Positions 6,800 to 63,853 of a stretch of 64,000 nt of DNA are shown here, in pieces. Below the pieces are notes generated by a model. It worked only from the letters and a program-made list of their open reading frames with translations. It ran no database searches and was not told where the DNA came from. The stretch's first letter is position 1. The number at the start of each line of letters is the position of its first letter. Both the position numbers and the translations under genes were made by a program. Origin of the DNA: Collinsella sp. AK_207A (GTDB lineage Bacteria > Actinomycetota > Coriobacteriia > Coriobacteriales > Coriobacteriaceae); contig NZ_CABWID010000016.1 of NCBI RefSeq assembly GCF_902501965.1, positions 1 to 64,000 of the forward strand. Reading direction: 5' to 3'.

Positions 6800-6849
6800 G
6801 CGCCCATGTGGCCGCCGCACGATATGAACGGTTTGAAAGGGAAATCGAT

Positions 6850-7701
6850 ATGGCAGTGATCATCGACGGAAAGGCGCTTGCCGCCAAGGTGCGAGATCAA
6901 GCGCGTCACGATGTGGACGAGCTGAAAGAGCGGGGCATCGAGCCGGGGCTCGCCGTGGTGCTCGTGGGAGACAACCAAGCTTCCGCCACGTATGTCCGGG
7001 CGAAGCTTCGCGACTGCGAGCAGTGCGGGATTCCGAGTCATGACTTCAAACTGCCCGCCGATACCTCCCAGGTGGAGCTCCTTGAGCTGATCGGTCGCCT
7101 GAACGAGGACGCTGCCATTGCAGGCATCTTGGTTCAGATGCCGTTACCGCGCCACCTCGATGAAGAGGCGGTGGTCTCGGCGATTCGACCGGATAAGGAC
7201 GTGGATGGCTTCCATCCCGAGAACCTGGGCCGCCTGGTACGCGGGCTTCCGGGCCTGCGGCCCTGCACGCCGGCGGGCATCATGTGCATGCTCGATGAGC
7301 ACGGAATCGACCCGGCGGGGAAGAGCGCGGTGATCGTGGGTCGTTCGAGCATCGTCGGCAAGCCCATGGCGCTCATGCTCCTCGCGCGCGACGCGACGAT
7401 CACGGTCTCCCATTCGCGTACCGCCGACGTTGCGGCCGTGTGCCAAACGGCGGATATCGTGGTTGCCGCGTGCGGCATTGCGCGCATGATTAAGGGCGAT
7501 TGGCTGAAGCCCGGCGCTACGGTGATCGACGTGGGCATGGATCGCGACGAGGCAGGCAAGCTCTGTGGTGATGTGGACTTCGAGAGCGCGGAGCCGGTCG
7601 CGGGCGCCATCACGCCCGTGCCCGGTGGCGTGGGACCGATGACGCGCGCCATGCTCATGAGCAACGTGGTGCTCGCCGCGCGCATGCAGCACGGGCTGTA
7701 G
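6850..7701 (+). CDS. folD: Bifunctional methylenetetrahydrofolate dehydrogenase / methenyltetrahydrofolate cyclohydrolase
   Basis: A 283-aa enzyme interconverting 5,10-methylene-, methenyl- and 10-formyl-THF with NADP(H). Catalytic YVRAK (Tyr/Lys pair), the Rossmann nucleotide site IVGRSSIVGKP and the family signature PVPGGVGPMT are visible. The ATG at 6850, preceded by GAAAGGG, gives the standard N-terminus MAVIIDGKALAAK. Cotranscribed with fhs. Confidence 0.97.
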   Translation: MAVIIDGKALAAKVRDQARHDVDELKERGIEPGLAVVLVGDNQASATYVRAKLRDCEQCGIPSHDFKLPADTSQVELLELIGRLNEDAAIAGILVQMPLPRHLDEEAVVSAIRPDKDVDGFHPENLGRLVRGLPGLRPCTPAGIMCMLDEHGIDPAGKSAVIVGRSSIVGKPMALMLLARDATITVSHSRTADVAAVCQTADIVVAACGIARMIKGDWLKPGATVIDVGMDRDEAGKLCGDVDFESAEPVAGAITPVPGGVGPMTRAMLMSNVVLAARMQHGL

Positions 7702-7711
7702 GCGTCATCAG

Positions 7712-7836
7712 GCCGCTGTTCCCCTCCCCGCGCATGCCCGCAGCGACACTCCGCAGCGAGCCGAGATAACGGCAAAGCCGTTTCCCAGCTTCGTGAGGAC
7801 TAAGCGCAGGGCACGCGCGGGGAGGGGAACAGCGGC
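7712..7836. repeat. Hairpin repeat, copy 1 (shares a core with 61228-61449)
   Basis: Two 28-nt inverted arms, 7712-7739 and 7809-7836, match at 27 of 28 positions, the exception being a G-U-compatible change. The enclosed 69 nt carry a small hairpin (7768-7773 with 7777-7782) and two boxes, TCCGCAGCGA at 7750-7759 and CCAGCTTCGTGAGGAC at 7785-7800. Both boxes recur in the element at 61.2 kb although the arms are unrelated. Sits between folD and the convergent cold-shock gene. It could be a REP/MITE-like repeat or a structured RNA. Confidence 0.8.
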
Positions 7837-12296: not shown

Positions 12297-13043
12297 CTAG
12301 GCGCGCTGGATGACGCCGTGGCTGATGCCCGTGACGCGTTCGATTTGCCGGATGGGGAAGCCTTCGCGCTTTGCGTGCCGAAGCACGCTGTCGCGGCGGG
12401 CGCGCGGCTCCTTGCCGAGCTCGCGGGCCTCAAGGGAGAATTCCGTTTGCATGTACGCGCGCAACTCGTCGTCGGCGCGACGGTTCCGCCCCCGCTGCTC
12501 CAGCACCTGGGCGGTGCCGTCCGCCTCCGAGGCATCAACGAAGCGGTAGAGCTCGTCGATGCTGGGGAAGAGCTCTTTTACGAGGCTTTTGCTGAGCATG
12601 CCACCTTGCTCGCGATATGCGGCGTAGCTGCTCCAGCGGTAGGAGTTCGTCTTCGCCACCTTTGCCCGCTCGGGATTGCGCAGGATGGAGCGGACCACGG
12701 TGAGCGCGTAACCCTCATCCTCGATGCAGCGGGAGTCGAACCGGCCGCGGAAGAGGTGGCCGGTTCGATGATGGCGGTTGTTGAAATAGGTGGCGTACGC
12801 GCCGTTCAGGCCCGACATGAAGGCTGAGAGTTCGTCGCTGATGTCGCGGAGGAGCAGGTGATAGTGGTCGTCCATGAGGCACCACGCGCCGAGCTCCACG
12901 CCGGTGGCGCCGAGTCGGTTTCGAAGAAGCTCGAGAAACCGCTGGTAGTCAGCTTCGTCCTCGAAGATCGACTGACGCGAATCGCCCCGCGCGTTAACGT
13001 GGTAGAGGCCGCTCTCGCACGTCGCTCTCGCCTCTCGCGGCAT
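12297..13043 (-). CDS. REP-associated tyrosine transposase (RAYT / TnpA-REP, Y1 family)
   Basis: A 248-aa Y1 HUH-type protein. LMDDHYHLLLRD supplies the HUH pair (H60, H62) and the helix GAYATYFNNRHHRTGHLFRGRF carries the candidate catalytic Tyr. The C-terminus adds a basic helix-turn-helix-like extension (about 200-248). RAYTs are single-copy domesticated transposases that handle REP hairpins. The start at 13041-13043 (MPREARATCESG) matches the family; a longer in-frame extension is not supported. The palindrome at 13062-13094 lies just upstream, as expected for a cognate REP. The gene sits alone between the ABC1 kinase and the MetRS-like gene, convergent with the former. Confidence 0.92.
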   Translation of the reverse strand: MPREARATCESGLYHVNARGDSRQSIFEDEADYQRFLELLRNRLGATGVELGAWCLMDDHYHLLLRDISDELSAFMSGLNGAYATYFNNRHHRTGHLFRGRFDSRCIEDEGYALTVVRSILRNPERAKVAKTNSYRWSSYAAYREQGGMLSKSLVKELFPSIDELYRFVDASEADGTAQVLEQRGRNRRADDELRAYMQTEFSLEARELGKEPRARRDSVLRHAKREGFPIRQIERVTGISHGVIQRA

Positions 13044-13061
13044 GGCTTCCTCCCCGGGCGA

Positions 13062-13094
13062 AGTGGTACATTGGGACTGTCCCACTGTACCACT
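13062..13094. repeat. REP-like palindrome upstream of the RAYT gene
   Basis: Nested inverted repeat: outer arms AGTGGTACA (13062-13070) and TGTACCACT (13086-13094), inner GGGAC-T-GTCCC. It lies between the RAYT start and the divergent MetRS-like gene. Palindromes with a GGGACTGTCCC centre next to RAYT genes are the usual substrate type, so it may be the cognate REP or an operator. Confidence 0.7.
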
Positions 13095-13174
13095 CTGCTT
13101 GATGGGCCGCTGTGCGATAATGGACGCTTGTACGTCGTTTCTACCTGCGCATCCATGCGGAAAGGATCCTCCCC

Positions 13175-15340
13175 ATGGCAAAGCATCTCACCACTGCCGA
13201 CCGTCCCTCCTGGCCGCGTCGCGCCATCGTGACCGCGGGCATGCCCTACGGCAACAAGGGCTTGCACTTCGGGCACGTGGGCGGCGTCTTCGTACCGGCT
13301 GACTTCTACGCCCGCTTCCTCCGCGACCGCCTGGGCCGCGAGAACGTGATGTTCGTCTCGGGCACGGATTGCTATGGCTCGCCCATCATGGAGGGCTATC
13401 GCAAGAAGGTCGATGCCGGCGAGTTCGAGGGCTCGATTCGCGATTATGTCCAGGGCAATCACGATCGCCAGGCCAAGACGCTGCGCGACTTCGAGATCTC
13501 CTGCGACCTGTACGGCGGATCCGGCTTGGAGCCGGCGCTTCGCGTGCACGAGCGCATGACGGCCGAGGTGGTCAACCGCCTGCACGAGCAGGGCAAGCTG
13601 GAAAAGCTCTCCACCAAGCAGTTCTACGACCCCCGGGCCGGTCAGTTCCTGAACGGTCGCCAGGTGATCGGGCGCTGCCCCATCCAGGGCTGCAAGTCCG
13701 AGAAGGCCTACGCCGATGAATGCGATCTGGGTCATCAGTTCGAGCCTGAGGAGCTCATCGCCCCCAAGAGCGCGCTCACGGGCGAAGTGCCCGAGCTGCG
13801 CCCGGTGGACAACCTCTACTTCGACCTGCCGAGCTACCTCGATGCCATCAAGCGCCACACCAAGGAGCTCGAGGCGGACGAGACCGTGCGCCCCGTGGTC
13901 TCCAAGACCATGGAGGAGTGGCTGCTTCCCGCCCAGCTCTACATTCAGGTGAAGTTCCGCGAGGCCTTCGAGGCCGTCCGCGGCGAGCTGCCCGAGCACA
14001 CCGTGACCGAGTCCCCGGACGGCAAGGGGTCCTTCGTGGTGACCTTCCCCAGCTGGAAGGAGCGCGACGCCGCGCATGAGCCGCTGGGGCGCGGGGGCGT
14101 GCGCTTCCGCTCCGGTAAGGCGCTCGTGCCGTTCCGCATCACGGGCAATATCACGTGGGGCGTGCCGGTGCCCGATATCGATGGCTGCCATGACCTGACC
14201 TGCTGGTGCTGGCCCGAGAGCCTCTGGGCGCCCATCAGCTTCTCGCGCACGGTCCTCGCGCGTAACGAGGCCGCCGGCGCCATGGATGCACCGGGTGCCG
14301 AGGTGGCCGCCCACGACGCCGCCATCGCCGAAACCGACGCTCCCGACGTGATCGCGCGCCCGGCCTATGCCCACGCCTCGCTCGACTGGCACGATTGGTG
14401 GTGCTCGGACGATGCCAAGGTCTACCAGTTCATCGGCCAGGACAACATCTACTTCTACTGCGTGGCGCAGACCGCGCTGTGGGAGGCGCTTGGCTGGAAC
14501 CTGCGCCAGACCACGGTGGCCGCCAACTACCACATCCTCTACATGGGCAAGAAGGCGAGCTCAAGCTCTCAGACCCCGCCGCCACTCGCCGAGGAGCTGC
14601 TCGACCACTATACCGCCGAGCAGCTGCGCGCGCACTGGATCTCTCTGGGACTCGGCGAGAAGCCGGTGAGCTTCTCCCCGAAGGCCTTCGATACGCGCGA
14701 GACCGGCAAGAACCCGGATGGTTCGCCGCTGCTCGCCCGCGATGACAAGCGGGTGATCGACCCCGCCCTCAAGGAGGGTGCGATGCTCACGGGCGTCTTC
14801 AACCGCCTGGCCCGTTCGTGCTTCTACGCGGTGGCCGAGAAGGAAGGCGACGGGAGCGCGGTGCGGACCGGCTGCATTCCCGCCGGTGAGCCGAGCGCGG
14901 CGGTGCTCGAGGCCTGCGAGCAGGCGGTACTCGCCTTCGAGCGCGACATGTACCGCTTTGAGCTGCACCACGCGCTCGGCGTGTGCGACACGTTCCTGCG
15001 CGCGGCCAACAAGCGCTGGAGCGATGCCAGCAAGGCAGCCAAGAACGTGGCGGCCGAGGGGGATGCCGAGCGCGGGGATGAGCTCATGCGCGCTGCGCTC
15101 GTGGACGCCTTCCAGGAGCTGCGCGTGGCGGCGATTCTGATGCACGGTATTGTGCCGGCGGGCACGGAGCTCATCTGCGAGCACTTCAACGTGGCGCCGG
15201 AGACGTTCTTTAGCTGGGAGCACGTGCTGCAGGCGACGGACGAGTTCGTGCGCGGCCTCGGCGAGGAGCCGGGTGAGCACCGTGTGCGCCCCCTGCCGCC
15301 GCGCTTCGACTTCTTCTCCAAGCACGAGAGCCAGTACTAG
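13175..15340 (+). CDS. metG: Methionyl-tRNA synthetase-like class I tRNA ligase with an altered KMSKS loop
   Basis: A 721-aa protein with the class I HIGH signature as HFGH (in GLHFGHVGG), a Cys/His zinc-knuckle region (CPIQGCKSEKAYADECDLGH), the WGVPVPD motif and a C-terminal helical anticodon-binding-like region. The catalytic KMSKS is replaced by K459-K-A-S-S-S-S followed by TPPP, in an otherwise MetRS-like context (LLDHYTAEQLRAHW). The HIGH region and connective-peptide zinc site favour MetRS. The altered loop and insertions mean it may be either the only MetRS of this lineage or a paralogue with another job. Ribosome site GGAAAGGA. Directly followed (0 nt) by the GNAT gene. Confidence 0.8.
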   Translation: MAKHLTTADRPSWPRRAIVTAGMPYGNKGLHFGHVGGVFVPADFYARFLRDRLGRENVMFVSGTDCYGSPIMEGYRKKVDAGEFEGSIRDYVQGNHDRQAKTLRDFEISCDLYGGSGLEPALRVHERMTAEVVNRLHEQGKLEKLSTKQFYDPRAGQFLNGRQVIGRCPIQGCKSEKAYADECDLGHQFEPEELIAPKSALTGEVPELRPVDNLYFDLPSYLDAIKRHTKELEADETVRPVVSKTMEEWLLPAQLYIQVKFREAFEAVRGELPEHTVTESPDGKGSFVVTFPSWKERDAAHEPLGRGGVRFRSGKALVPFRITGNITWGVPVPDIDGCHDLTCWCWPESLWAPISFSRTVLARNEAAGAMDAPGAEVAAHDAAIAETDAPDVIARPAYAHASLDWHDWWCSDDAKVYQFIGQDNIYFYCVAQTALWEALGWNLRQTTVAANYHILYMGKKASSSSQTPPPLAEELLDHYTAEQLRAHWISLGLGEKPVSFSPKAFDTRETGKNPDGSPLLARDDKRVIDPALKEGAMLTGVFNRLARSCFYAVAEKEGDGSAVRTGCIPAGEPSAAVLEACEQAVLAFERDMYRFELHHALGVCDTFLRAANKRWSDASKAAKNVAAEGDAERGDELMRAALVDAFQELRVAAILMHGIVPAGTELICEHFNVAPETFFSWEHVLQATDEFVRGLGEEPGEHRVRPLPPRFDFFSKHESQY

Positions 15341-59515: not shown

Positions 59516-61225
59516 ATGAGTGAACACGAAGCGAGCACCATGACCGAAACGAACTACAACCGCACGACCCGTCCGCCGCTCAGCGCCGTTCCGGGTATGA
59601 CCGCGCCCGCCGCGACGGGTCGGACCGCGCAGCGCTCCCACGCCGCGGCGACAACCGCCTACCAATCCGCAGCTGCGCACCGCAAGGGCGCTCAGGGTGC
59701 CGGTCAGGGCAGCCACGGCGGCAAGCCCCGTCGCGTGCATCCCGCTCTGGTGACGCTCATCGCCGTCGCCGTGATCGCGCTCGTCGCCTACGCGGGCGGC
59801 GTGGTCGCCTTCTCGAACGTCTTCTATCCCAACACCGAGATCGCCGGCGTGGACGTCTCGCTCATGACGGCCAAGACCGCTGCCGCGCGCGTGGAGTCCT
59901 CCGCGGTGAACTACAAGCTCACGATCAAGGGCAACGACTTCACGTGGGAGTACAAGCCCGAGGACTCCTCCTCGCTCGTGGATGCCTCCGCCCGCGCGGA
60001 CGAGATCCTCCAGGAGAACGCGCCCTTCTCATGGCCGTTCCGCTTGGCTCGCGCGCTCTCCGATACGAAGAGCGTCGTATCGACGGGCACCGTTGCGAGC
60101 GGTTCCGAGGCGGACCAGGCCGTGGAGGCCGCGAAGAGCATCGAGCTGCCGAGCAGCTTCAACTTCGACGACTTCACCCAGCGCCTGGCCGCGGCGTGCG
60201 AGGAGTACAACCAGGGTCGCAGCGGCACCTTCGACGCCGCGAGCGCCTTCGATGCCGACCAGGGCAAGTTCACCCTGGAGAAGGCCAAGGCCAACGTGAA
60301 AATCGATACCGAGAAGGTGACCGCCGCCGCCAAGGTCGCGCTTGCCGACTTGGACACGTCCATCAAACTCGATGCCAGCTTCTTCGACTCGCTGGCGGCC
60401 CACGCCACCGACGAGCAGCTGACCCGGGCGATCGACGCCGCCAACAAGCTCGTGGCGCATACCATCACGCTGACCATGGCGGGTTCCGCGGTGGCCACGC
60501 TCGACCCCGCCACGCTCGAGCAGTGGGTGACCTTCGGCGATGATCTGAGCGCGACCTTCGATATGGACGCGATGACGGCCTGGCTGCGCCAGCTCACGAT
60601 CGACTCGCTCGACACCGTGGGCACCGAGCGCACCTACACGCGCCCGAACGGCAAGGTGGTCACCGTGAACGGCGGCACCTACGGCTGGGAGGTCAGCTCC
60701 GCGGAGCTGGCAAAGCAGGTCCAAAGCGCGGTGCAGACGGATGGCGACCAGACCATCGAGGTCGCTACCACCTCCAAGGCCGACATCTTCACCAAGCGCG
60801 GCGAGCGCGACTGGGGCGCCTTCATCGACGTCGACCTGACCGAGCAGCATGCCTACCTCTACGACGCGAGCGGCAACCTCCTGTGGGAGAGCGGCATCAT
60901 CTCCGGCAACCCCAACAAGGGCGATGACACCGCCACGCCCACGGGCGTCTACCGCATGCTCCAGCCTTCTCGCGACACCACGCTCATGGGCAAGAAGGAC
61001 GAGTCCGGTAAGCCGAGCTATCAGACGAAGGTCTCGTACTGGATGCCCTTCGTGGGCAGCGCCATCGGCCTGCATGACGCGAGCTGGCAGGCGTCCGCGA
61101 GTTTCTCCAACCCCTCTGCGTACCTGAGCGTGGGCAGCCACGGATGCGTGAACCTGCCGCCCGCCAAGGCGGCCGAGCTGTACGACAAGGTCGCTTCCGG
61201 CCTGTGCGTGGTGGTGCACTGGTAA
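59516..61225 (+). CDS. L,D-transpeptidase (YkuD) with an N-terminal peptidoglycan-binding-type region
   Basis: A 569-aa cell-envelope protein. About 80 basic, disordered cytoplasmic residues are followed by one membrane segment (ALVTLIAVAVIALVAYAGGVV). Two repeats of a YkuD-associated domain (about 110-370) are followed by the catalytic YkuD domain with GLHDASW and the signature YLSVGSHGCVNLPP (Cys544). It forms 3-3 crosslinks or attaches proteins to peptidoglycan. TATAAT (59484-59489) lies upstream. Convergent with gltX across the hairpin repeat. Confidence 0.92.
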   Translation: MSEHEASTMTETNYNRTTRPPLSAVPGMTAPAATGRTAQRSHAAATTAYQSAAAHRKGAQGAGQGSHGGKPRRVHPALVTLIAVAVIALVAYAGGVVAFSNVFYPNTEIAGVDVSLMTAKTAAARVESSAVNYKLTIKGNDFTWEYKPEDSSSLVDASARADEILQENAPFSWPFRLARALSDTKSVVSTGTVASGSEADQAVEAAKSIELPSSFNFDDFTQRLAAACEEYNQGRSGTFDAASAFDADQGKFTLEKAKANVKIDTEKVTAAAKVALADLDTSIKLDASFFDSLAAHATDEQLTRAIDAANKLVAHTITLTMAGSAVATLDPATLEQWVTFGDDLSATFDMDAMTAWLRQLTIDSLDTVGTERTYTRPNGKVVTVNGGTYGWEVSSAELAKQVQSAVQTDGDQTIEVATTSKADIFTKRGERDWGAFIDVDLTEQHAYLYDASGNLLWESGIISGNPNKGDDTATPTGVYRMLQPSRDTTLMGKKDESGKPSYQTKVSYWMPFVGSAIGLHDASWQASASFSNPSAYLSVGSHGCVNLPPAKAAELYDKVASGLCVVVHW

Positions 61226-61227
61226 GT

Positions 61228-61449
61228 CGCCCCGCCCCGCGAGCGGTGCCGACGGGGCGCCCGTGCGCGCTCCGCAGCGAACTGAGGAAACCCTACGGGA
61301 AAAGCGCTGGAACCGACAGCGGCTACGTCTTGGATTCAAATCCCGATGACATTGTCGTTCTGTCGGTTCCAGCGCTTTTCCCGTAGGGTTTTCCAGTCTC
61401 GCGAGGACCCGCACGGGCGCCCCGCCGGCACCGCTCGCGGGGCGGGGCG
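61228..61449. repeat. Large nested hairpin repeat, copy 2 (shares a core with 7712-7836)
   Basis: Outer arms 61228-61267 and 61410-61449 are 40 nt each and match at 39 positions. Inner arms 61288-61319 and 61360-61391 are 32 nt and match perfectly, leaving a 40-nt terminal loop. Between them are TCCGCAGCGA (61271-61280) and CCAGTCTCGCGAGGAC (61393-61408), the same boxes as in copy 1. The element occupies almost all of the convergent ldt-gltX gap and could terminate both. 222 nt overall, much too long for a simple terminator. Confidence 0.85.
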
Positions 61450-61477
61450 TCGACCGGGACGTCTGTTCGGTATCTGG

Positions 61478-62968
61478 TTACAGCGCCATCGTGCGCGCGC
61501 GGGCGATGCGGGCCATGCAGTCGTCCTTGCCGATGAGCGCCATCGTCTCACCGAGCGGCGGGCTCACCAGGTTGCCGCAGGCGGCGGCGCGGACGGCCTG
61601 GAACACGACGCGCTTCTTGGCGTCGAGCTGCTCGGGCAGCGGCTCCAGGGCAGCGTCCACGGCCTCTGCCGTCCAGCTTGCGGCGGGGATGGCGTCGAGC
61701 GCCTTCGCGGCGGCGTCGAGCACGGCTCCCATGCCCTCCTTGGCGAGGCCCTTGGAGACGGCCTTCTCGTCGTAGACGAGCGTGTCGGCGGTGGCGAAGA
61801 TGGGGGCGGCGACCGTGGCGGCGTCGGCGGGCATCTTCGTGCGCGGCTTCACGATGGCGGCGAGCTGCTCCATCCAGGCGGCGGTGCGCTCGGCACCCTC
61901 GTCCAGCAGGCCCGCGCGAGTGAGCTCGGGCACGAGGATCTTACGCGCGAACTCGGCGTCGGTCATCGCGTTGATGTACTCGGCGTTCATCCAGTCGAGC
62001 TTCTTGGGGTCGAAGGTGGCCGGGTTCTTGGAGATGCGGTCCAGCGAGAAGCGGCTCGCGAGCACGTCGCGCGGGATGACCGTGGTTTCGCCGTCGAGCG
62101 ACCAGCCGAGGAGCGCCAGGTAGTTCACGAAGGCGTCGGACAGGTAGCCGGCGTCGCGATACTCCTCAACCGACGTGGCGCCGTGGCGCTTGGAGAGCTT
62201 TTTGCCGTCGGCGCCGAGGATCATGGAGATGTGGGCGAACTCGGGCACGGGCGCACCCAGGGCCTCGTAGACCATGACCTGACGCGGGGTGTTGGAGAGG
62301 TGGTCGTCGCCGCGGATGACGTGCGTGATGCCCATGGCGGCGTCGTCCACCACGGTGGTGAAGTTGTAGGTGGGCGTGCCGTCCGAGCGGATGATCACGA
62401 AGTCGTCGAGCTCCTTGGCGTCAAACACCACGTCTCCGTGCACGGCGTCGTGGATGTGGACGTCGCCGCGGTCCTCGGGCACCTTGATGCGCAGCACGTA
62501 GGACTCGCCGGCGTCCATGCGCGCACGGGCCTCGGCGGGGTCGATGTGACGGCAACGGCGCTGGTAGCCCTGGAAGGGGTCCTTGCGGGCACGGGCCGCC
62601 TCGCGGTCGGCCTCGAGCTGCTCGGGCGTGCAGAAGCAGGGGTAGGCGCGGCCCTCGGCGAGCAGGCGCTCGGCGGCGGCATGATAGATGTCCAGGCGCT
62701 CCATCTGCTTGTAGGGGCCAAACGGGCCGCCGATGTCGGGGCCCTCGTCCCAGTCGAGCCCGAGCCACTTCATGGCGCGAAGGATCACCTGGGTGTTCTC
62801 CTCGGTGGAGCGGGCCGGGTCGGTGTCGTCGATTCGCAGGATGAAGGTGCCATGGTTCGCGCGGGCGAAGGCCCAGTTGTAGATCGCGGTGCGCGCACCG
62901 CCGATGTGCAGCTTGCCCGTGGGCGAGGGCGCGAAGCGGACGCGGACGGGACGGTCTGGTGAGGTCAT
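61478..62968 (-). CDS. gltX: Glutamyl-tRNA synthetase
   Basis: A 496-aa class I synthetase. APSPTGKLHIGGARTA (HIGH) at the start and KKLSKRHGATS (KMSKS) are intact, and NHGTFILRIDDTDPARS is the family catalytic stretch. The start at 62966-62968 (MTSPDRPVRVRFAPSP) is standard; the longer frame to 63358 is not supported. Charges tRNA-Glu; a non-discriminating role (also tRNA-Gln) cannot be judged here. Confidence 0.97.
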   Translation of the reverse strand: MTSPDRPVRVRFAPSPTGKLHIGGARTAIYNWAFARANHGTFILRIDDTDPARSTEENTQVILRAMKWLGLDWDEGPDIGGPFGPYKQMERLDIYHAAAERLLAEGRAYPCFCTPEQLEADREAARARKDPFQGYQRRCRHIDPAEARARMDAGESYVLRIKVPEDRGDVHIHDAVHGDVVFDAKELDDFVIIRSDGTPTYNFTTVVDDAAMGITHVIRGDDHLSNTPRQVMVYEALGAPVPEFAHISMILGADGKKLSKRHGATSVEEYRDAGYLSDAFVNYLALLGWSLDGETTVIPRDVLASRFSLDRISKNPATFDPKKLDWMNAEYINAMTDAEFARKILVPELTRAGLLDEGAERTAAWMEQLAAIVKPRTKMPADAATVAAPIFATADTLVYDEKAVSKGLAKEGMGAVLDAAAKALDAIPAASWTAEAVDAALEPLPEQLDAKKRVVFQAVRAAACGNLVSPPLGETMALIGKDDCMARIARARTMAL

Positions 62969-63100
62969 GTGAGCTCCTTGCTCGAAGTTCTCGCTGGTGA
63001 TTCTGGGTAATAATAGTGCAATTGGCAACGGGTGTGAAATCGCCCGAGCGGGTGTCGGGGTGCGGCGCGATGCAGGTTCGCCGCGCCGAGGGAGGCCGGA

Positions 63101-63853
63101 GTGGCTGAAGCGGATATCTTGGTGGCGGCGCGCGATGCCGGGTACCGGCGCGGGAGCGCCCCCTCGTTCGAGTACGTGAACTTTCAGGCGCGTGCGGACG
63201 CGTGCCTCGCCCTGATCGGGTCGGAGGTTGCCGCGGTGCGCGACGTGCTGCTGGCAGTGGCGGGCGTTATCACCCCGACCACGGGGTCGCTCGTGGTGCG
63301 CGGCACGGAGCTGTCGGCGTCCCATCCGGCGGGCGATGGAGCGGCTGGCCGCTTGCACGCCCTGCTCGCACGGGGTCGCGGCGCGCGGATGCCGCGCGGG
63401 AGCGTGGGGCTGGGCGTCGTTTCCGGCGCCTTCGAGGTGGAAGGCGCGTTCACGGTGGAAGAGGCGGTGCGCCGCGAACGCTTGCTTCGCCGCGTGCGGA
63501 ATGCCGGCGACACCCTGGAATATCTCTCCTGCTTCGGGCTCGCCACCTATGCGGACCGAACGGTCGCCAGCCTGCCTCCCGAGGGCCGCGCCCGGCTCTC
63601 GGCGGCGCTCGCGTGCGCGGGTGGGGTTCGCGTGGCCTGCGTCGACCTGGCCGATCCGTTCTGCGCGGGCATGATGCGGGCATCCGCGGCGCGCGTCGTG
63701 GGCGACCTGGCGCGTATCGCGCGGGAGCAGTCATGCGCGCTCGTGGTGGGGACCGTCGAACCGACGGTGGCGGTCGCCGCGGACGAGGCATGTGCGCTCG
63801 ATCTGGACGCGGCGGACGCGCTTGCCGCCTGCAAGGGAGCTGATGCCCGATGA
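63101..63853 (+). CDS. Degenerate ABC-type ATPase-like protein
   Basis: A 250-aa protein that follows the layout of an ABC nucleotide-binding domain but without its catalytic motifs. The Walker A position reads ALIGSEVAAVRDVLLA, followed by GVITPTTGSLVVRG as in real ABC proteins (usually GLxxPTxGxVxxxG). The signature region reads VASLPPEGRARLSAALACA in place of LSGGQRQR. Walker B reads ACVDLADPF and the H-loop region GTVEPT lacks His. GTG start after GAGGGAGG. Its stop overlaps the next gene's ATG (ATGA), so the two are coupled. Likely a non-hydrolysing partner of that membrane protein; inference. Confidence 0.75.
   Translation: MAEADILVAARDAGYRRGSAPSFEYVNFQARADACLALIGSEVAAVRDVLLAVAGVITPTTGSLVVRGTELSASHPAGDGAAGRLHALLARGRGARMPRGSVGLGVVSGAFEVEGAFTVEEAVRRERLLRRVRNAGDTLEYLSCFGLATYADRTVASLPPEGRARLSAALACAGGVRVACVDLADPFCAGMMRASAARVVGDLARIAREQSCALVVGTVEPTVAVAADEACALDLDAADALAACKGADAR

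Follow-up and report, generated by a model that had tools for sequence, protein, structure and literature searches.

Two long hairpins stand just past genes in the window, by which is meant the whole 64,000-nt stretch of Collinsella sp. AK_207A analysed here, and a sequence check finds both of them where an earlier note on this DNA had put them (Table 1). The arm of the first (copy 1) begins 11 nt past the stop codon of a folD-like gene. The note had further proposed that boxes shared by the two copies can pair as UCC/GGA and GCGA/UCGY around a GCA/GA internal loop, and folding bears this out, with GCGA/UCGC, for copy 2 and for most of the other copies described below; in copy 1 the pairing is possible, but the fold of lowest energy retains UCC/GGA alone and pairs the next helix differently. 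The long apical hairpin of copy 2 gives it the same total length (138 nt) as a copy on contig C6, and the two sequences differ. The window also carries a RAYT-like gene, whose score against the NCBIfam model for REP-associated tyrosine transposases lies below the cut-off of 80 set for that model.

Table 1. Hairpins and genes of the window, in order of position.
Feature	Position	Strand	Basis and remarks
folD-like gene (THF dehydrogenase/cyclohydrolase)	6808-7701	+	Pfam, ORF
Copy 1, 5' outer arm	7713-7739	+	pairs with 7809-7835; sequence and fold
Copy 1, conserved core CTCCGCAGCGA...TCGTGAGGA (double internal loop and apical hairpin)	7749-7799	+	
Copy 1, 3' outer arm	7809-7835	+	sequence and fold
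RAYT-like gene	12297-13181	-	Pfam Y1_Tnp 40.9 bits; NCBIfam REP-associated tyrosine transposase 46.7 bits
L,D-transpeptidase (YkuD) gene	59516-61225	+	Pfam, ORF; stop immediately 5' of the copy 2 arm
Copy 2, 5' outer arm	about 61228-61269	+	40 paired columns, one mismatch
Copy 2, core with long copy-specific apical hairpin, 138 nt	61270-61407	+	
Copy 2, 3' outer arm	about 61408-61450	+	
Class I tRNA synthetase (E/Q type) gene, converging on copy 2	61478-63358	-	Pfam, ORF

Copies and covariation in one genome

Within the window the 11-mer CTCCGCAGCGA is not significant when taken alone (three matches with at most one mismatch, 4.87 expected), and neither are two longer one-sided motifs. Across the 2.12-Mb genome the two-box pattern has 11 exact matches and its reversed control none, and a covariance model built from nine copies and searched over the same genome returned 37 rows, consisting of 21 full-length places, the long copy on contig C6, 12 rows that read the same hairpins on the opposite strand and three weak rows that were left out of the copy count. 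The model missed copy 2 of the window, which other searches recovered, so that the model places, the C6 copy and copy 2 together make a family of about 23 copies. The earlier note had accepted that a complete lack of further copies would refute it, and about 21 exist in this genome beyond the window pair.

Some of these places deserve a description of their own. On contig C14 (L004), the minus-strand reading holds a truncated left half, AGCGACACTCCGCAGCGAACT, 87 nt before a complete copy, and looks as if an older copy had been left without its right half. On contig C15, two elements in opposite orientation (L029 and L037; C15:60136-60256 and 60367-60487) lie about 110 nt apart between convergent genes, one for a VanS-like histidine kinase and the other weakly methyltransferase-like. 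On contig C10, a divergent subfamily without the GCA loop, with boxes TTTCTGAGCGAACTG...CAGTCTCGC, occurs at two places 2.7 kb apart (L042 and L045; C10:393661 and 396346).

Each element consists of a core of about 75 nt and of arms, mostly 20-40 bp, that differ between copies. In the sense of the adjoining gene the core reads GCUCRRACA-GUCCUCGC-X-GCUGCGGAA-CU, that is, GCUCRRACA-GUCC[UC]GC-X-GC[UGC]GGAA-CU, and its form in the genome of the window is GUCCUCGC-X-GCUGCGGAG. Covariation was counted on a gapless alignment of the 14 of 23 own-genome copies that have equal length, leaving out those of other lengths or with other apical hairpins; the structure itself was derived from nine copies, eight of which are also in this alignment. 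Mean pairwise identity among the 14 falls from 0.93 in the core through 0.83 in the outer loop region and 0.79 in the apical helix to 0.67 in the arm beside the core and 0.44 in the distal arm (0.35 when shuffled), so the arms, which the earlier note had called unrelated, are not wholly so, and the boxes, far from changing at random, are the most conserved part of the element and turn up again throughout the order. Despite this divergence of the arms, 93.3% of cells in the outer helix are paired, and 17 of 18 arm pairs have changed on both sides. Over the whole structure both sides have changed in 22 of 43 pairs and 93.9% of cells are paired, against 79.6 +/- 1.0% in shuffled alignments; none of 500 shuffles reaches the observed value on any of five measures, and sliding by one to three columns drops pairing from 94% to 28-39%. 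Compensatory changes thus exceed the shuffled controls, as is asked of a structured RNA under selection, and a chance origin of the family is rejected both by these shuffles and by the two-box count against its reversed control. An alignment of 14 genus members (A3) gave almost no consensus structure (six pairs, none changed on both sides) because the arms misalign, and covariation was therefore counted only within the one genome.

Spread across the order and turnover at gene ends

The pattern exactly as written has no match in 42 other genomes of the genus and five in contig records titled as other groups, and the covariance model from the home genome (R1) finds only three shorter relatives in other genus genomes. 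Restriction to one species is nonetheless rejected, since it is the apical part that is species-specific, while the core read on the sense strand is genus- and order-wide. In relatives, 34 regions at the 3' ends of three genes were compared: several species have the same gene-sense core behind fba, G036 has it behind leuA, and the hairpins behind ilvC lack the two-box core in all eight relatives examined, several of these hairpins being followed by T-runs. A generalised sense pattern matches in 39 of 43 genus genomes, coding matches included. Across the class it matches in 146 of 296 genomes, a count that takes in lone matches at the level of the control; the other 150 have none, and the genome of the window itself scores zero because its right box ends in GGAG. 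Single genomes give, for example, 46, 44, 36, 30 and 21 matches, against 0, 0, 1, 0 and 0 for the reversed pattern, which yields 0-5 per genome. The core recurs across one order, in at least three of its families and with different paired arms; compared with the reversed pattern it is strongly enriched in many genomes of that order and little beyond it.

Most of the loci fetched from two further families and from other genera fold alike. Among 13 elements of one length from those two families, nine further columns (GCTC, ACA and CT), none of them part of the boxes that the pattern itself prescribes, are invariant and the arms differ. A strong arm accompanies 82 of 122 pattern matches in the fetched loci, against 1 of 300 shifted positions; the 40 matches without one belong to a set that includes L130-L159, mostly from outside the order. 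A second, different hairpin core, CTCACCTGGCTTNGCCAGAAGTCGCGC, is found at the fba 3' ends of 22 of the 43 genus genomes (for example L088-L099), at one place per genome except for two in G007 and in G032, and is rejected as a family member, being a separate and nearly single-copy motif. A viral origin is likewise rejected, since two scans of viral contigs with exact patterns returned no matches.

The earlier note had read the element on the strand as written, and gene context corrects this, since the sense strand is mostly the reverse complement. By a simple GC3-based ORF caller, 15 of the 23 own-genome copies have that orientation, with the stop codon at most 41 nt from the modelled element; four, including copy 1 of the window, have the opposite one, with the stop up to 59 nt away; two, copy 2 among them, lie between convergent stops, and two are undetermined. 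For 86 matches in other genomes (L100-L129 and L160-L209, with L130-L159 left out of this count), 44 are sense with the core within 80 nt past a stop, four are antisense, 20 fit neither class and 18 fall inside crude ORF calls, some of them plainly coding. The bias in orientation is not absolute. Those neighbours that could be named, among 20 proteins scanned, are mostly housekeeping genes of varied function, such as rpoD, rho, groEL, htpG, grpE, fba, leuA, ilvC, serC and prs, too varied for the family to mark a regulon, which is rejected.

Elements at the same gene end are not stable between close species. Six loci of genome G041 (A-F) were each set against their orthologs in five or six close relatives; the comparison was anchored on the left flank alone and leaves out one ortholog of 139 bases (L252). 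Locus A has the core in G036, G040 and G029 and none in G020 and G039; locus B has it in G020, with altered cores in similar hairpins in G035, G040 and G029 and none in G036 and G039; locus E has it in G040 and G035 and none in G036, G020 and G039. At locus C the same hairpin recurs in G035, G040 and G029, the core is altered in G020, G036 has a coreless palindrome and G039 nothing. At locus D the G041 hairpin is common to G035, while a different hairpin lies between similar flanks in G020 and G029, the core has other arms in G039 and G036, and the palindrome of G040, of about 36 bp, has no core. At locus F the hairpins of G041, G020 and G029 have nearly perfect long arms of largely different sequence, and G035, G039 and G040 have no hairpin. 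Closely related species thus differ through gain, loss or replacement of these hairpins, and the family also behaves as a dispersed, REP-like one. Coreless near-perfect palindromes with arms of about 36-42 bp stand at gene 3' ends at L247 (G040) and at L241 and L062 (G036), in places that are occupied in relatives by the element or by a different hairpin.

Other possible readings: mobile DNA, terminators and DNA sites

Such turnover is also what might be seen if the family were non-autonomous mobile DNA, its mismatched core read by a Y1 (RAYT/IS200-like) transposase that cuts and joins the single-stranded hairpin without any role for the host. The family satisfies what is asked of REP/RAYT systems in being a high-copy extragenic palindrome with a conserved stem mismatch, and in E. 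coli such a mid-stem mismatch is conserved in REPs and needed for TnpAREP (PMC8266576). Y1_Tnp matches occur in 17 of 24 genomes searched, and the only one in the home genome is the REP-associated-like gene inside the window. Most of them are weak (35-60 bits, in ORFs of about 250-360 aa), with ordinary IS200-looking matches (136-139 bits) in G102, in G220 and at two places in G177. However, the core is absent within about 1.2-1.5 kb of all 24 Y1_Tnp loci examined, of 36, which leaves a RAYT-driven REPtron unsupported, and four genomes with 19-44 core copies have no Y1_Tnp match at all. The GTAG/CGTC tag is absent from the own-genome consensus, where the outermost columns are not conserved (the arm feet are not aligned), and where CGTC does occur, in some genus members, it lies within the hairpin. 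Thus, although the family resembles REPs and BIMEs in its dispersed extragenic palindromes, its mid-stem mismatch and the Y1_Tnp genes of many of the same genomes, it differs from them in greater length, in arms that vary from copy to copy, in lacking the tag and in having no copy beside the Y1_Tnp genes examined. With the strong bias to stop codons in a single orientation also against it, I regard mobile DNA as unlikely to be the explanation. The main text of a 2013 survey of REPs (PMC3733652) mentions no Collinsella, Coriobacteri, Actinobacteria, Olsenella or Eggerthella.

If the hairpins were instead ordinary intrinsic terminators, with cores that are alike only through shared ancestry, their GC-rich stems directly past stop codons would be expected, and that much of the definition of an intrinsic (Rho-independent) terminator is met; the coreless ilvC hairpins with their T-runs and a few T-rich single copies, such as the own rpoD copy, which is followed by TTTTT, fit as well. 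The other part, a U-tract after the stem, is lacking in most copies by tail counts that are rough both at home and elsewhere: 21 own copies have a mean of 1.5 T in 8 nt (about a third of these tails are cut off by the fold window), and 101 elements in other genomes have a mean of 1.7, only three with at least 5 T (with loosely placed arm ends). Termination does not need invariant internal loops either, and the family, with its conserved double loop repeated across many genes, departs from known terminators sufficiently for this to seem rather improbable. In a human-microbiome screen by Fremin and Bhatt (2021; PMC8040213), 230 of 250 palindromic candidates were predicted terminator stem-loops, and REPs or another class were suggested for the rest. 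Those candidates are palindromic like the present elements; the core is not described in the part of the paper available, and overlap with its supplementary candidates is not excluded.

A palindrome or cruciform site in the DNA at gene ends, bound by gyrase, HU or another chromosome protein and renewed by template switching, would suit the long near-perfect inverted repeats, the few G-U pairs and the palindromes of locus D in G040 and locus C in G036, which lack the core and stand at orthologous gene ends with arms of about 36 bp, but it gives no obvious reason for an orientation bias relative to transcription and is quite improbable.

No Rfam family accounts for the element in the stretches searched. 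With Rfam 15 the window yields only 5S rRNA at the gathering threshold, and in 12 related loci, with E allowed up to 0.1, the matches are a TPP riboswitch in another part of L183 and two miRNA families below threshold. In the openly licensed literature (supplements were outside the search) no description was found, and among the matches listed the core letters appear only as a short 10-base string in unrelated papers.

A possible role at mRNA 3' ends

What has been found is a real, order-wide repeat family of 3'-end hairpins with a conserved internal-loop core, and the family is apparently undescribed. The earlier note had offered either selection on RNA structure or a repeat recognised through its core; the further copies, the covarying arms and the near-invariant boxes support the idea, with the correction that these are not alternatives, since features of both are present. 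A stem that varies and still pairs around a motif that is nearly fixed means that something seems to read the motif, and the orientation bias points to transcription. The reading that I prefer, inferred without any experiment from the observed structure, position, strand bias and turnover, is that of a strand-specific or strand-biased 3'-UTR element that defines or protects mRNA 3' ends, with a protein-binding core and REP-like genomic behaviour, and I would put its probability at roughly one half.

The transcript would then run beyond the stop codon into the hairpin, which the anatomy allows us to suppose in the absence of transcript data. The outer helix, mostly of about 20-40 bp and tolerant of almost any sequence as judged from the copies compared, may stop 3' exonucleases and so fix where the 3' end of the mRNA lies once transcription has terminated in the absence of a U-tract, for instance by Rho-dependent termination followed by trimming, a mechanism invoked here from general knowledge. 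The two asymmetric internal loops, which in the folds lie fixed inside the outer helix, could be the binding site for a protein acting on that end; no such protein has been identified.

The arms themselves set a limit on how far RNA can explain them. With G-U scored as neutral and mismatches penalised, the arms of 21 own copies hold 9 G-U among 462 pairs, with 16 mismatches, and those of 82 elements elsewhere 72 among 2142, with 82 mismatches. Helices kept by RNA selection alone are expected to hold more G-U pairs than this. Their rarity is what one expects of young DNA palindromes rather than of old RNA helices and weakens a purely RNA-based reading, and taken together with the replacement of hairpins between species it means that palindrome formation at the DNA level cannot be excluded. 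Both lines of evidence could be accommodated by a palindrome that is renewed as DNA and put to use as RNA. More speculatively, and I consider this unlikely, the core and apical hairpin may spread or be homogenised while the arms are remade at each site by copying one flank into its inverted repeat, through template switching or snap-back synthesis at the hairpin. The contrast in identity between distal arms and apical helix would fit (0.44 against 0.79, in the 14 equal-length copies only), as would the few G-U pairs and the situation at locus F, where three species have different near-perfect arms and three lack the element. If arm renewal were true, it would reveal a new kind of self-renewing palindrome, one that turns gene 3' ends into long hairpins displaying a recognition core common to the order.

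On the preferred reading, a 3'-UTR element found throughout the order, and in some genomes in tens of copies, would mean that these bacteria have an as yet unrecognised machinery for the formation, protection or processing of mRNA ends. Because the arms are free and the core is fixed, the copies already amount to a natural experiment on what a binding protein reads, and the family offers a system for asking how long near-perfect palindromes arise and renew themselves in bacteria.
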